Below, one piece after another: positions 4,630 through 19,906 of a DNA stretch of 22,737 nt. Every line of letters starts with the position of its first letter. Positions within the stretch are counted from its first letter, which is position 1. The notes below the pieces were generated by a model, which saw only the letters and a list, made by a program, of their open reading frames with translations, was not told where the DNA came from and made no database searches. The translations under genes and the position numbers were made by a program. This stretch comes from a virus, in IMG/VR virus record IMGVR_UViG_3300026531_000012, positions 1-22,737 of that record; one strand, given 5' to 3'.

Positions 4630-5457
4630 ATGAGCATCGCGAACTTCAAGCCCAACATCTGGAGCGCCCGGCTTCAGGCCAACCTGGACAAGGCCCTCGT
4701 CTTCGGCGGGCTCGTCACCCGTGACTGGGAGGGCGAAATCCGCGAGCAGGGCGACAGCGTGCGCATCAACCGCCCCAACAACCTCACGGTCAACGACTAC
4801 GCGGGCAGCGTCACCTACGAGTCGCCCACCAGCGCGCAGACCATCCTCACCATCGACCAGAAGAAGTACGTCGCCTTCAAGGTCTCCGACATCGACCAGG
4901 CCCAGGCGAACGTCGACCTGATCGACGCCTACGCCAACCGCGCGGCCTATGCCCTGGCTGACGCGGTCGACCAGTACCTGGCCAGCCTCTACACTGCGGC
5001 CGGTGCCGGCACCGTGACCCTGGACCTCACCGCCGCCACTCCCGACGTCTACGGCGCGTTCGTCGAGGCGCGCAAGCTGCTCAACAAGAAGAACGTGCCC
5101 CAGAACGGCCGCTGGGTCGTGGTCAGCCCCGACGTTGAGGCCGCCCTGCTCCAGGACGACAAGTTCGTGCGCGCCACCGACCAGGGCGACAACATGCGCA
5201 TGACCGGGCTCATCGGCGGCATCGCCGGGTTCGACGTCTACGTCTCCAACAACGTGCCCGAGGTCGTGGCCACAGGCACCTTCCACAAGGTGCTCTTCGG
5301 CTACAACGACGCCATCGCCTTCGCTGGCCAGTTCACGAAGGTGGAGGCGCTGCGCGGCGAGTCCAGCTTCGACGACCTCTTCCGCTCGCTGTACCTCTTC
5401 GGCGCGAAGGTCATCGAAGCCAATGGCCTCGGCGTCATCGACGCCCAGGTGGCGTAA
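4630..5457 (+). CDS. Major capsid protein (HK97 fold, P22-coat-like family)
   Basis: The 275-residue protein directly follows the scaffold gene and has a strong AAAGGAG site (4617-4623). An early stretch (RDWEGEIREQGDSVRINRP) and the later GRWVVVSPDVEAALLQDDKF then IAGFDVYVSNNVP are typical of a P22-gp5-like coat family found in many siphophages: a spine-helix/A-domain core, then a conserved FDVYVSNN strand. It should be the most abundant virion protein. Codon use is strongly biased to GC-ending codons, as expected for high expression. The assignment is firm as major capsid, less firm for the exact subfamily. Confidence 0.9.
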   Translation: MSIANFKPNIWSARLQANLDKALVFGGLVTRDWEGEIREQGDSVRINRPNNLTVNDYAGSVTYESPTSAQTILTIDQKKYVAFKVSDIDQAQANVDLIDAYANRAAYALADAVDQYLASLYTAAGAGTVTLDLTAATPDVYGAFVEARKLLNKKNVPQNGRWVVVSPDVEAALLQDDKFVRATDQGDNMRMTGLIGGIAGFDVYVSNNVPEVVATGTFHKVLFGYNDAIAFAGQFTKVEALRGESSFDDLFRSLYLFGAKVIEANGLGVIDAQVA

Positions 5458-6460: not shown

Positions 6461-6867
6461 GGCGTGAGAACCGGCGCAAACAGGTCGAGGCCAAGCTGCA
6501 GCGCCTGGCGCGCCGCGTGATCCGCGTGCGCGCCGACAGCCTGCGCTCGGAGGAGTACGGCATCCTCGAGGCCTACCGTGTAGGCCGCGGCGAGCACTGG
6601 CCCGGGCAACCCAACCCTTCGAGCGCCCCAGGTGACCCGCCGGCGCGCCAGACCGGGCACCTGATGGAGAGCGTGCGCTACATCATGCACCCCACCGAGT
6701 TGCGCGCCATCATCGGGCCGCTCGAGCGCGGCAGCACCATCGACGGGCCCCGGCCGGTGCCGTACGCGGCGCCGCTCGAGTACGGCAGCCTGCACGTCGA
6801 GCCGCGGCCGTGGATCCGCCCGGCTTACGAGCGCTGGCGAGCCAAGTGGGCAGGAGGTGGCCGGTGA
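6457..6867 (+). CDS. HK97 gp10-like neck / tail-completion protein
   Basis: The 136-residue basic protein begins with GTG 6457 in a 4-base overlap. Its C-terminal motif, VPYAAPLEYGSLHVEPRPWI then RPAYER, is the hallmark of the HK97 gp10 family (Y-A...E.G......PRP(F/W)...A). Members take part in joining heads to tails. An N-terminal helix (about 1-35) is rich in Arg/Lys. Placement between the stopper and the tail terminator is exactly that seen in HK97-like phages. Confidence 0.87.
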   Translation: MRRENRRKQVEAKLQRLARRVIRVRADSLRSEEYGILEAYRVGRGEHWPGQPNPSSAPGDPPARQTGHLMESVRYIMHPTELRAIIGPLERGSTIDGPRPVPYAAPLEYGSLHVEPRPWIRPAYERWRAKWAGGGR

Positions 6868-7223: not shown

Positions 7224-7625
7224 ATGGCCGTAAAATCTCGTGGTAACGTCAAGGTTGAAATCTCGACCGATGGCGGAACGACGTACAACGCAATCCCAGA
7301 GCCCACGCAGCTCAACTACAAGGGGGCTCTCGGCACCATCGACATCCGGCACTTTGACAGCACCTCTCAGGAAGCTATCGCCGACATCCACGCTGCCAGC
7401 GCCGATTACACCGGGTATTTCATCCCTGGCAACACCGTCCTGGCGGCGCTGCGCTCGGCCAACGAGGCCGGGACAAAAATCAAGGTAAAGCTGACCTATG
7501 GCGACAGCGGCAACCAAGAGCTGTTCGTTTTTGACGCCTACGTCGCCGACTTCAACATGTCCAGCGGTGAGGTCCAAGAGGTTTCCTGCACCTTCAAGGG
7601 CGACGGGGTTGTTAGCTCCAGCTGA
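7224..7625 (+). CDS. Major tail (tube) protein
   Basis: The 133-residue protein follows the tail terminator and is read from ATG 7224 after a TAGGAGGC site. It is a beta-rich small tube protein: VKVEISTDGGTTY, then TIDIRHFDSTSQEAIADI near residues 40-60 (the typical Ile-Asp-x-Thr-Ser-like segment preceding the alpha-helix/loop) and FVFDAYVADFNMSSGEVQEV near 105-125. Hexamers of such proteins build the tail tube. Its codons are somewhat less GC-biased than its neighbours (AAA, ATT and TTT occur), suggesting a separate origin or mosaic exchange of the tube gene. Confidence 0.87.
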   Translation: MAVKSRGNVKVEISTDGGTTYNAIPEPTQLNYKGALGTIDIRHFDSTSQEAIADIHAASADYTGYFIPGNTVLAALRSANEAGTKIKVKLTYGDSGNQELFVFDAYVADFNMSSGEVQEVSCTFKGDGVVSSS

Positions 7626-7876
7626 TGCTGCTAACTGCTAAACTGCGGAGCTGGCGCGGCAACCCGCCCAGCTCCGCGCCCATCGTGGGCCTGGGATGCG
7701 AGGAGGTAGACGGGGGCGTCTGGTGCGAGCTCGTCTACGTCGCCCGCCGCACCCGGGCCAAGACCGTCAACGCCACCTTGCACGACTCCCAGCGCCGCCG
7801 GGTGCGGTTGCGCTGGCCCGGCCTGGAGCCGGGGCTGCATGAGGGGGTCAGTTTTGAGCAAAACGAAAAAGTCTGA
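7625..7876 (+). CDS. Small tail-region protein of unknown function
   Basis: The 83-residue ORF starts in the TGATG overlap with the tube gene, so it is probably translated by re-initiation; no clear SD is present. It has two Cys, an Arg-rich middle (ARRTRAKTVN, then DSQRRRVRLRW), and its last 38 bases overlap the tail chaperone gene. Third-position GC is high, which supports real coding. I do not recognise a family; small genes between the tube and chaperone genes occur in many siphophages. Confidence 0.65.
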   Translation: MLLTAKLRSWRGNPPSSAPIVGLGCEEVDGGVWCELVYVARRTRAKTVNATLHDSQRRRVRLRWPGLEPGLHEGVSFEQNEKV

Positions 7877-8150
7877 CTACATCGAGGTTTTTGGCTACAA
7901 GATCCCGCGCTGGCCGGTTTGCAGCATGGGCGAGCTCGAGGCTCTGGAGGCCTACCACCGTACGCCCGGGGCGACCGAGACCGGCGCCGCGCTTGTGGCC
8001 ATCGCCGCGGCCATTCGCTACCGCCTCGGCGAGGAGGTGACCCCGGACGACCTGCGGCGCAAGCCGGCGGACGCCGCGGCCATCCGTGACGCCATCGAGG
8101 CGCTGACCGAGAGCTACCCGCGCGGAGATGAGCAGGCAAAAAACGCCTGA
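7839..8150 (+). CDS. Tail assembly chaperone, short form (gpG-like)
   Basis: The 103-residue, mostly helical protein lies between tube and tape-measure genes, where siphophages encode the chaperone pair that coats the tape measure. ATG 7839 is the annotated start. A TTG at 7854 (giving MSKTKKSDY) has a better-spaced GAGGGGG site and is a good alternative. The 3' end carries a slippery A AAA AAC (8138-8144), two codons before the TGA, so a fraction of ribosomes should enter the -1 frame and make the longer G-T fusion. The pairing is as in lambda G/GT. Confidence 0.85.
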   Translation: MRGSVLSKTKKSDYIEVFGYKIPRWPVCSMGELEALEAYHRTPGATETGAALVAIAAAIRYRLGEEVTPDDLRRKPADAAAIRDAIEALTESYPRGDEQAKNA

Positions 8151-8183
8151 AGGGGCGCGCCGATTGGAATCGGATCCGCGCCC
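8138..8183 (+). promoter_or_regulatory. Programmed -1 ribosomal frameshift signal
   Basis: The slippery heptamer A AAA AAC (8138-8144) is in the zero-frame phase of the short chaperone ORF. Eight bases later a strong hairpin starts: GGGCGCG (8153-8159) pairs with CGCGCCC (8177-8183), and inside it CCGAT (8160-8164) pairs with ATCGG (8169-8173) around a TGGA loop, leaving a 3-base ATC bulge. Heptamer type, spacing and a 12-bp stem all match known stimulators of -1 frameshifting. Confidence 0.9.
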
Positions 8184-8530
8184 TGGTCTCCCACTACTAC
8201 GCCACGCCGCTCGATCGCGTGGCCTATCTGCCGTGGGACGTGGTGCAGACGGCGCTCGAGACAACGCAGGAGCTCGAGTACCGGCGGCACGCCCACACCG
8301 CCGCGCTGATGCTGATGGTAGCCCAGGTCGCCGGCAGCACGGAGCGCGACCTGGACGCTTACCTGCTCCCATACGCCAAGCTCGACCCTGAACCGCCGCT
8401 GCCGCTCGCCGTCGCCCGCGACCTGCACGAGGCACTGAACCTTGGCCTCGTGCCGCAGGAGATGGTGGATGCCATCGGCGGCCGCACCGTGGCCCTCTCA
8501 CTGAGGGCATTGGAGGGCTCCCATGCCTGA
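8144..8530 (+). CDS. Tail assembly chaperone, frameshifted T domain (gpGT C-terminus)
   Basis: The -1 frame relative to the short chaperone is open from the slippery site to TGA 8528-8530, adding 128 residues after 102 zero-frame codons (fusion about 230 residues). It begins RLKGRADWNRIRALVSHYY and is helical throughout. A GTG at 8219 lies in this frame but has no ribosome site and would cut off the first 25 residues, so I regard it as expressed by frameshift only. By analogy with lambda GT, the T part should bind the tube protein while the G part coats the tape measure. The stop overlaps the tape-measure start. Confidence 0.88.
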   Translation, partial: RLKGRADWNRIRALVSHYYATPLDRVAYLPWDVVQTALETTQELEYRRHAHTAALMLMVAQVAGSTERDLDAYLLPYAKLDPEPPLPLAVARDLHEALNLGLVPQEMVDAIGGRTVALSLRALEGSHA

Positions 8531-11261
8531 GCTGCTCGACCGCGTAATCGTCGAGATCCTCGGCGACGACTCCAAACTCAAACAGGCCCTCGACCGGGCC
8601 GAGCGCTCGGCGACCCGGGCCGCGGGGAAGATCGAGGGCGCCTTCGACCGCGCCGTCGGCCCGAGCACTCGCCTGCTCGGCTCGGTGACGGTGCTCGGCG
8701 GCGCCCTCTCCGCCCTCGGCATCAAGGCCGTTGGGATGGCCGGCGACATGGAGCAGGCCCGCATCGGTTTGACGACCATGCTCGGCTCGGCCGAGGCGGC
8801 CGACAAGCATCTGCGCTCGCTATATGATTTTGCCGCTAAAACCCCGTTCGAGATTAGTGGCCTGATCGATGCTGACCGCCGCCTCATGGCGATGGGGTTT
8901 GCGGCCGAGGAGGTCATCCCGACGCTGACCGCCATCGGCGACGCCGTGGCGGCCGTGGGTGGCTCGGCCGAGCTCCTGGACCGCGTTACCCTGGCCCTGG
9001 GGCAGATGCGGGCCAAGGGCAAGGTCAGCGGCGAGGAAATGCGCCAGCTCGCCGAAGCCGGCATCCCAGCCTGGGAGATGCTGGCCGACGCCATCGGCAC
9101 CGACATCCCCACGGCCATGAAGCTGGCTGAGCAGGGGACCGTTGACGCCGCGACTGGTATAGAGGCCATCCTGAGCGGCATGGAGCAGCGCTTCGCCGGT
9201 TCGATGGAGGCCCAGTCGCGGACCATCCTCGGCATGTGGAGCAACGTCAAGGACAACGTCACTCGCTCCATGATCGCCCTTGGCGAGGAGATCACCGATG
9301 CCCTCGACGTCCGCGGCATCCTGCAGATCAGCCTGCAGGCGCTCGAGCGCTTCCGTGCATGGCTCGAGCGCGGCGGTCTGCGCAAATGGTGGGCCGACTA
9401 CAAGGACACCCTCATCGTCGTGGCGGGGGCCATCACCGGGGCGCTGGTGCCCGCGCTCGTGGCGCTGGGTACCGCCATCTGGGGGGCCCTGGTGCCCGCG
9501 CTCGTGGCGCTGGGTACCGCCATCTGGGGGGCCCTGGCTCCGCTCACGCCGTTCATCGCGGCCGGAGCCGCCCTGGCCGGTGCCTTCGTGTTAATGGGCG
9601 GCACGATGGACGACGTCAAGGTGGCGCTGAAGACGCTAGGCACGCTGTTCAGCGGCCTCTGGGACATCTTCACCGGCTTCGTCCAGGGCACCGTGGGCAA
9701 GCTCAAGGCCCTCGGCGACGCCTGGCGCGCCTACATCGACGGCGTCTCCACCGGCATTGCCAACATGGGCCGCGCCATCGACGCAGTGATTCATGGCCGC
9801 TTCCGTGAGGCGTTGGACTACGCCAAGCAGGCGGTGGGCAGCTGGAAGAGCGGTTTGGCTCGAGCGTTCGGCGAGATTGGCGACGCCGGACAGGAGGGCG
9901 CCGACCGCATCTACCAGGGGCTGCTTAAGGTTTCCGACGTCGTCACCGGCAAGGTTGGCGCGTCGTTTGCCGAGGTCAAGGCCAAGGCGCAGGAAGTGGC
10001 CGACACCGCTGCGAGCGGGTTCGGCGTCACGGTTCCAGCCGCGGCCAAGACTGCCGGCCGGGCTATCACCACCAACGTTGTGCAGCCGCTGAGCACCGCC
10101 GTCGAGAAGGCCAAGGAGCTGGGCGACTACCTCACCGCGGCCTCCGGCACGCTCTACGGCCGCCAGCCGCAACCGGAAGGGCTTGGCCGGCTCGGCGCAA
10201 CGGTTGCCCCGCGCGGCGAGCCGGACATTGCCGGAGGTTGGCCTGAGCTTCCTGATACGTTATGGAACTTCGACCAGGCGGCGCGGGAAGCGGCGCAGGC
10301 CACCGAGGAGCTAAACCGGCGCATCCGCACCATCACGGGCACGGGCTCGAGCGTCTACGGCGGCACCCGTGGCCCTGGCCTCGGCCGTGGTGGGGCCATC
10401 GTGGCCCCTGGGGGCCAGCCAGGCATCGCTGGCGGAGCTGAGTTGCCCCACTGGCTGCGGATGTATGGAGCCAGTGGCTCGGACGCCAAGTTTGGGCGGT
10501 CGGCTCCGGTGTGGTCTCCCGATCCGCGCATCGCCATGTACCAGCGGGCGCAATTCTCTATGACCTACGGCGGCATAAACCGGCTGGGGCAGACGCCGGA
10601 GCCGGAGGCGACGAAAAAAGCCCCCGAGTGGCTGACCGAGTTGGGCGAAAGGGCGCGTAATGTCGTCTCGGCGCTCAATCCGTTCAAGGCGATCCTCGAC
10701 GCCATCAACCCGCTGGGAACCATCGTCCAGTCGATGCTCGAGGAGTTGGGTCCGGTGCTCGAGCCGATCGTCAAGGTCTTCGCCGAGATGGGCAAGATTC
10801 TGGGACGCGTACTGGCCCCGGCGCTCAAGCTGCTCACCCCTGTGGTTCAGTGGCTCGGCAACGTCCTGGGGGCGGTCGCCCGCTTCGTCGCCGGGGTTTG
10901 GAACGCCATCGCCCGCGGCTTGAACGCCGTGCTCGGCTGGCTCGGCGTCAACATCCCAACCGTCGACCTGACGGGTGGCACGCAGACACAGCCTCCAGGC
11001 AGCGAGGAGCCCACGCCAACCTGGTCCTGCTGGGGCGACACCACCAACCAAATCGACACCATCGGCATCGCTGCAGCCCCCACTCCGGTCGTGGCCACAC
11101 CTGGCTGGGTGCACACCTTCGGCAGCCACGTCGACCGGTTCGGACAGTACGTGGCGCGGCTGGTTGAGGAGGGAATCCGTGTACAGATTGGCACAGGTGA
11201 CGTTGCTCCTGCTGGCGCTGGCGGCGTGTGGAACCGCGCCGTCGCCGGTGAGCTCGGATGA
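8523..11261 (+). CDS. Tape measure protein
   Basis: The 912-residue protein sets tail length and is carried inside the tube. The start (ATG 8523) has GGAGGG at 8513-8518. The N-terminal 230 residues match the tape-measure N-terminal domain: AGDMEQARIGLTTMLGSAE, FAAKTPFEISGL, the RLMAMGF region and ALGQMRAKGK, then LAEAGIPAWEMLADAIG. Hydrophobic segments follow at about 300-365, including a recent 45-base tandem duplication, and near 750-810. Residues about 545-650 hold two degenerate Gly/Pro-rich repeats. At about 0.15 nm per residue, the family rule, the tail would be about 137 nm (inference). The 3' end overlaps the reading frame of the next gene. Confidence 0.95.
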   Translation: MPELLDRVIVEILGDDSKLKQALDRAERSATRAAGKIEGAFDRAVGPSTRLLGSVTVLGGALSALGIKAVGMAGDMEQARIGLTTMLGSAEAADKHLRSLYDFAAKTPFEISGLIDADRRLMAMGFAAEEVIPTLTAIGDAVAAVGGSAELLDRVTLALGQMRAKGKVSGEEMRQLAEAGIPAWEMLADAIGTDIPTAMKLAEQGTVDAATGIEAILSGMEQRFAGSMEAQSRTILGMWSNVKDNVTRSMIALGEEITDALDVRGILQISLQALERFRAWLERGGLRKWWADYKDTLIVVAGAITGALVPALVALGTAIWGALVPALVALGTAIWGALAPLTPFIAAGAALAGAFVLMGGTMDDVKVALKTLGTLFSGLWDIFTGFVQGTVGKLKALGDAWRAYIDGVSTGIANMGRAIDAVIHGRFREALDYAKQAVGSWKSGLARAFGEIGDAGQEGADRIYQGLLKVSDVVTGKVGASFAEVKAKAQEVADTAASGFGVTVPAAAKTAGRAITTNVVQPLSTAVEKAKELGDYLTAASGTLYGRQPQPEGLGRLGATVAPRGEPDIAGGWPELPDTLWNFDQAAREAAQATEELNRRIRTITGTGSSVYGGTRGPGLGRGGAIVAPGGQPGIAGGAELPHWLRMYGASGSDAKFGRSAPVWSPDPRIAMYQRAQFSMTYGGINRLGQTPEPEATKKAPEWLTELGERARNVVSALNPFKAILDAINPLGTIVQSMLEELGPVLEPIVKVFAEMGKILGRVLAPALKLLTPVVQWLGNVLGAVARFVAGVWNAIARGLNAVLGWLGVNIPTVDLTGGTQTQPPGSEEPTPTWSCWGDTTNQIDTIGIAAAPTPVVATPGWVHTFGSHVDRFGQYVARLVEEGIRVQIGTGDVAPAGAGGVWNRAVAGELG
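9444..9533 (+). repeat. 45-bp tandem duplication inside the tape measure gene
   Basis: Units 9444-9488 and 9489-9533 are almost base-for-base identical and encode a repeated 15-residue hydrophobic block, LVPALVALGTAIWGA. The unit is a multiple of three, so the frame is kept. Near-identity implies a recent duplication that lengthens a membrane-like helix. Confidence 0.9.
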
Positions 11262-19856: not shown

Positions 19857-19906
19857 TGCGCCTGATAAGCGTGAGGTCGGTGGTTCAAGTCCACCATCGC
19901 CCACCA
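19857..19906 (+). other. attP: attP core: 3' half of tRNA-Ile(GAU)
   Basis: From about 19857 the sequence reads as the 3' half of a tRNA: anticodon loop CTGATAA (19862-19868, anticodon GAT), anticodon-stem strand GCGTG, variable loop AGGTC (19874-19878), T stem GGTGG (19879-19883), loop TTCAAGT, CCACC (19891-19895), acceptor strand ATCGCCC (19896-19902), A73 and CCA (19904-19906). There is no D arm or proper acceptor 5' strand (GGGCGAT) in front, so it is not a whole tRNA gene. Phage integrases commonly use such tRNA 3' ends as the core so that insertion rebuilds the host tRNA. Exact left core edge not visible. Confidence 0.85.

Follow-up and report, generated by a model that had tools for sequence, protein, structure and literature searches.

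The question raised by this locus is how two overlapping reading frames, situated between the genes for the major tail protein and the tape measure of a siphophage, are expressed when the second of them is not preceded by a conserved start with an SD sequence. The analysed DNA, referred to as the window, corresponds to positions 1-22,737 of the IMG/VR virus record IMGVR_UViG_3300026531_000012 (22,737 nt). The answer favoured by the sequence comparisons, with a probability of about 0.88, is that this siphophage, the host of which is probably a member of Thermaceae, expresses a pair of tail assembly chaperones from a single start via a -1 frameshift at A_AAA_AAC.

The window carries a siphophage structural module with a terminase-like protein at 771, capsid at 4630, tail terminator at 6810, tube at 7224 and tape measure at 8523, together with an integrase and a repressor on the minus strand. 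The major tail (tube) protein (7224..7625, plus strand) and the tape measure protein (8523..11261, plus strand) were matched to PHROG 158/1407 and to PHROG 12798 and Pfam TMP_3, respectively. The first ORF of the pair between them, G, encodes a 98 aa G-type tail assembly chaperone candidate (7854..8150, plus strand). Its probable start is TTG 7854, which is kept in the four related genomes and follows the SD-like GAGGGGG at 7841-7847 of the same strand; ATG 7839 was rejected as the start because it is ACG in the related contig L002. The second ORF, T (8144..8530, plus strand), lies in the -1 frame and would be translated only by frameshifting, as the C-terminal domain of a G-T fusion. Its stop, TGA 8528-8530, overlaps the tape measure ATG at 8523. 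A further small ORF was observed between the tube gene and G (7625-7876), the end of which is overlapped by the start region of G; it had no family match.

No Pfam or PHROG family was matched by G or T, no convincing PDB chain was found for G, and tblastn of both proteins against named phages gave no match. The predicted models were modest (pLDDT 68) and the viral fold matches were weak, with E values of 0.02 at best, several of them being named tail assembly chaperone. Altogether, the sequence-family, PDB and fold searches with G gave nothing firm. As neither protein matches a known family profile, the chaperone role rests on the position of the genes and on the recoding architecture.

Read directly, the 0-frame at the end of G is GCA AAA AAC GCC TGA. 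The earlier note, made from the window sequence, had reported an in-phase A AAA AAC close to the stop of the short ORF; the heptamer is indeed found at 8138-8144 on the plus strand, in phase for tandem -1 slippage and with one sense codon (GCC) between it and the TGA at 8148-8150. Another TGA (8129-8131), six bases ahead of the heptamer, closes the -1 frame just 5' of the slip site. Due to these two stops, a productive shift is confined to 8132-8147, about 16 nt. From 8132 the -1 frame is open to TGA 8528-8530, and the 128 open codons claimed earlier were obtained when counted from the shift to this stop. An in-phase XXXYYYZ within the last six codons occurred in 1.3% of codon-order shuffles, and AAAAAAC in 0.01%. 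Across the entire window, the plus strand contains only four A6 runs. Lysine is encoded by AAA at 12 of the 73 positions in the structural genes and by AAG at the other 61; the AAA of the slip site is nonetheless kept.

The decisive evidence for the frameshift signal is its conservation, as judged from the alignment with the close relatives available, which were three viral contigs only (L002, L003 and L004) from three different metagenomes. The fusion is encoded in all three at 74-83% amino acid identity. The heptamer and its flank, CAAAAAACGC, are invariant in the four aligned genomes, the mean identity of the region being 85%. Upstream of the heptamer, 67 of the 94 third positions of the 0-frame were variable, compared with 29/95 and 22/95 at the other two codon positions. 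Downstream of it, the variation was found at the third positions of the -1 frame (82/113 vs 19/112 and 34/113). These patterns indicate that the protein-coding constraint switches from the 0-frame to the -1 frame at the heptamer. The position of the 0-frame stop is not conserved: in L004 (2939-2987) it is displaced to just past the hairpin, as a TAG 42 nt after the heptamer. Since this stop lies past the stem, a stop right behind the heptamer does not belong to the conserved signal.

The putative stimulatory hairpin is located at 8152..8184 on the plus strand. The 12 bp stem at 8153-8183, previously described as beginning 8 bases past the heptamer, was recovered and amounts to 13 bp when the closing G.U pair is counted. 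The pairing comprises 8152-8159 with 8177-8184 and 8160-8164 with 8169-8173, with a 3-nt bulge and a 4-nt loop; the spacer from the heptamer is 7 nt to the closing G.U pair and 8 nt to the first G-C. The predicted energy was -22.2 kcal/mol with a z-score of -1.58, and 15 of the 200 shuffled sequences were equally stable. Stability alone was discarded as evidence, as the value is not significant and barely better than those of shuffles in a sequence with 66% G+C. At 65 °C, the predicted energies were still -8 to -12 kcal/mol.

The seven pairs of the lower stem are paired in 100% of cases in the four genomes, and the upper helix is at least partly kept in three of them. The four T codons that make up the lower stem (GGG CGC..CGC GCC) are identical in all four genomes, whereas of the 77 T codons at which the residue is conserved, only 24 are unchanged at the codon level. 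The covariation that the earlier note had proposed to look for is weak: there is one G.U to A-U change, and the upper helix of L004 is re-formed in another register from different bases (GGACT/AGTCC). The lower pairs are otherwise almost invariant among these four sequences, so that their constant pairing does not amount to proof by covariation.

A possible internal SD-like stimulator, GGAG, is present at 8124..8127 on the plus strand and ends 10 nt before the heptamer. It is found at the same position in the window, L002 and L004 and is absent in L003; the background frequency is about 5% of positions. The same bases also encode the Gly-Asp common to these three genomes, and for this reason GGAG is regarded as a lead only.

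The closest tape measure relatives among named genomes were Thermaceae MAGs. Beside the integrase, about 48 bases of the window (19859-19906) exactly match the 3' half of tRNA-Ile in 32 of 111 Deinococcota genomes, and this segment was matched to the Rfam tRNA family at threshold. It is likely the attP core and a pointer to the host, which is probably Thermaceae.

More distant relatives of the chaperone pair were also detected. The first scan of genome contigs with the chaperone alignment gave no match, and four loci from a DNA-pattern search for the signal (L130, L131, L133 and L135) were dismissed as chance because the match was not at a chaperone pair. Homologues of both halves were found in a distant Deinococcota provirus (genome G099; L125:6349-7061, minus strand) with profile E values of 5e-9 and 5.5e-7. 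T is again in the -1 frame there, and the only in-phase heptamer is CCCTTTC (C_CCU_UUC). This provirus has a Gly/Asp-rich linker ahead of the T domain.

Among the 59 candidate G/T pairs at loci found via the tape measure, 42 heptamers were in the productive phase, compared with 10 and 15 for the two remaining phases; the count is approximate because the automatic ORF-pair picking was wrong for L002 and probably for a few others, and the rows are not independent. AAAAAAC occurred 7 times in phase and never out of phase, and the same was determined for GGGAAAC (7 vs 0). An A6C followed by an immediate 0-frame stop was seen in L081, L087, L095, L096, L098, L103, L104 and L110. Of these, L081, L098 and L110 were tested, and in each the AAAAAAC-terminated ORF was identified as a Phage_TAC_5 (XkdN-like) chaperone. 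By sequence, AAAAAAC before the stop is a widespread shift site among the tape measure relatives. In two proviruses of Thermaceae MAGs, the tape measures of which are related (L059:4600-4616 and L079:4714-4730), a T-like ORF was observed in the +1 frame with a conserved GAATCCTTTCGTG at the switch; +1 frameshifting (TTT_C) is probable in these relatives from the same host family.

The same fusion would be obtained if RNA polymerase added one A to the A6 run, or dropped two, and a normal ribosome then read G-T from the edited mRNA. This has to be considered because, according to passages in PMC1088944 and PMC5009743, dnaX of Thermus thermophilus owes its recoding to RNA polymerase slipping on an A9 run, and two lysine tRNAs exist in Thermus; the host of the present phage is probably of the same family. 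In addition, a passage in PMC5009743 states that in E. coli A_AAA_AAC slips far less readily than A_AAA_AAG, which speaks against a ribosomal frameshift. However, the run here is only six A, while in a large share of genomes runs become prone to slippage at about nine, and 8 A has been called non-slippery. The phase of the heptamer, the C after A6 and the hairpin at ribosome spacing fit the ribosome, as do homologous sites that lack long runs, for example C_CCU_UUC and G_GGA_AAC. On these grounds the ribosome appears to be the better candidate for the slipping agent, and polymerase slippage, the main alternative, is considered improbable.

Even less probable is that T is an independent gene, translated from an internal start or by re-initiation once translation of G has ended, with the heptamer being incidental. 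Possible internal starts do exist at GTG 8219, 8240 and 8243 and at ATG 8309, but none of them has a spaced SD, in agreement with the earlier observation that the -1 ORF has no SD-bearing start, and the first, GTG 8219, is GTC in L003. Moreover, the T-frame constraint reaches the heptamer, 25 codons ahead of the first possible start: at 8145-8218, the third positions of the -1 frame were variable in 16 of 25 cases vs 2/25 and 7/24. As this pattern precedes any possible T start, translation of T appears to begin at the heptamer in each of the four lineages. Almost no credence is due to an artefact of sequencing or assembly, or to the decay of a chaperone gene into two pieces: although homopolymer runs are generally error-prone, no result of this analysis points to an error, the same split is present in three other contigs from three metagenomes, and constraint at the protein level is seen in both halves.

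With -1 frameshifting by the ribosome, expression of the pair would proceed as follows. For most ribosomes, translation would end with G at TGA 8148. In a minority of cases, the hairpin at 8152-8184 would stall the ribosome, perhaps with help from the upstream GGAG; on A_AAA_AAC, tRNA-Lys and tRNA-Asn would then move back by one base to pair with AAA AAA, and reading would go on in the -1 frame. The predicted product is a G-T fusion of 225 aa, the two parts of which meet as ...Q-A-K-N-R-L-K...; slippage of the P-site tRNA alone would give K-K at this point instead. If the proteins act like those of lambda, G would coat the tape measure protein and the T domain of the fusion would recruit tail-tube subunits. 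The sequences themselves show the signal, the frame switch, the conservation and the gene position. The production of the fusion, its ratio, the roles of the stimulators and the chaperone functions are what we infer from this arrangement.

The lambda G/GT-type interpretation of the earlier note is supported by the gene order, the in-phase heptamer, the hairpin, the start-less T, the frame switch and the conservation. Its novelty had been overrated, as frameshifts of this kind are standard among long-tailed phages. The present analysis adds a well-supported frameshift signal for an otherwise unassignable chaperone family of phages probably infecting thermophiles, and allows two small genes without a database match to be named from position and recoding. 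It also provides a natural test case of whether A_AAA_AAC slips well in Thermus, whose known recoding case, dnaX, uses RNA polymerase. A rather doubtful proposal is that in a thermophile with separate AAA and AAG tRNA-Lys the 'mammalian-type' A_AAA_AAC would give the fusion efficiently only when an upstream SD is combined with a hairpin of very high stability, as in dnaX, or that RNA polymerase slippage at only six A contributes part of it. If true, either route would extend the known rules of thermophile recoding.

Several known systems can be compared with this locus. The E. coli dnaX frameshift site consists of an SD-like sequence about 10 nt upstream, A_AAA_AAG and a hairpin. The A6 heptamer and the hairpin at short spacing are similar here, and the GGAG 10 nt upstream in 3 of the 4 related genomes may be a counterpart of the SD-like sequence. 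In contrast, the A site holds AAC instead of AAG, the genes are unrelated, and the product extends past the stop, whereas that of dnaX ends early. A_AAA_AAC has been predicted as the chaperone shift site in sections of the papers on phiCbK (PMC3556154), Acinetobacter phage Loki (PMC5313236), Paenibacillus phage Dragolir (PMC6003738) and halovirus HCTV-2 (PMC5009743). These phages share the heptamer and the gene position with the window but have other hosts and, as judged from the lack of tblastn matches in named phages, other chaperone sequences, and those sections describe no stem conservation. With T. thermophilus dnaX, the locus has in common A-run recoding in the likely host family; the differences are the A9 run, the RNA polymerase slippage and the lack of X_XXY_YYZ phasing in the former (PMC1088944). 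From lambda gpG/gpGT, the pair differs in its A_AAA_AAC with a strong downstream hairpin and in proteins for which sequence profiles give no match to a known chaperone family, while the position between tube and tape measure, the short ORF with an overlapping start-less -1 ORF and the in-phase heptamer near the end of G are the same in both.
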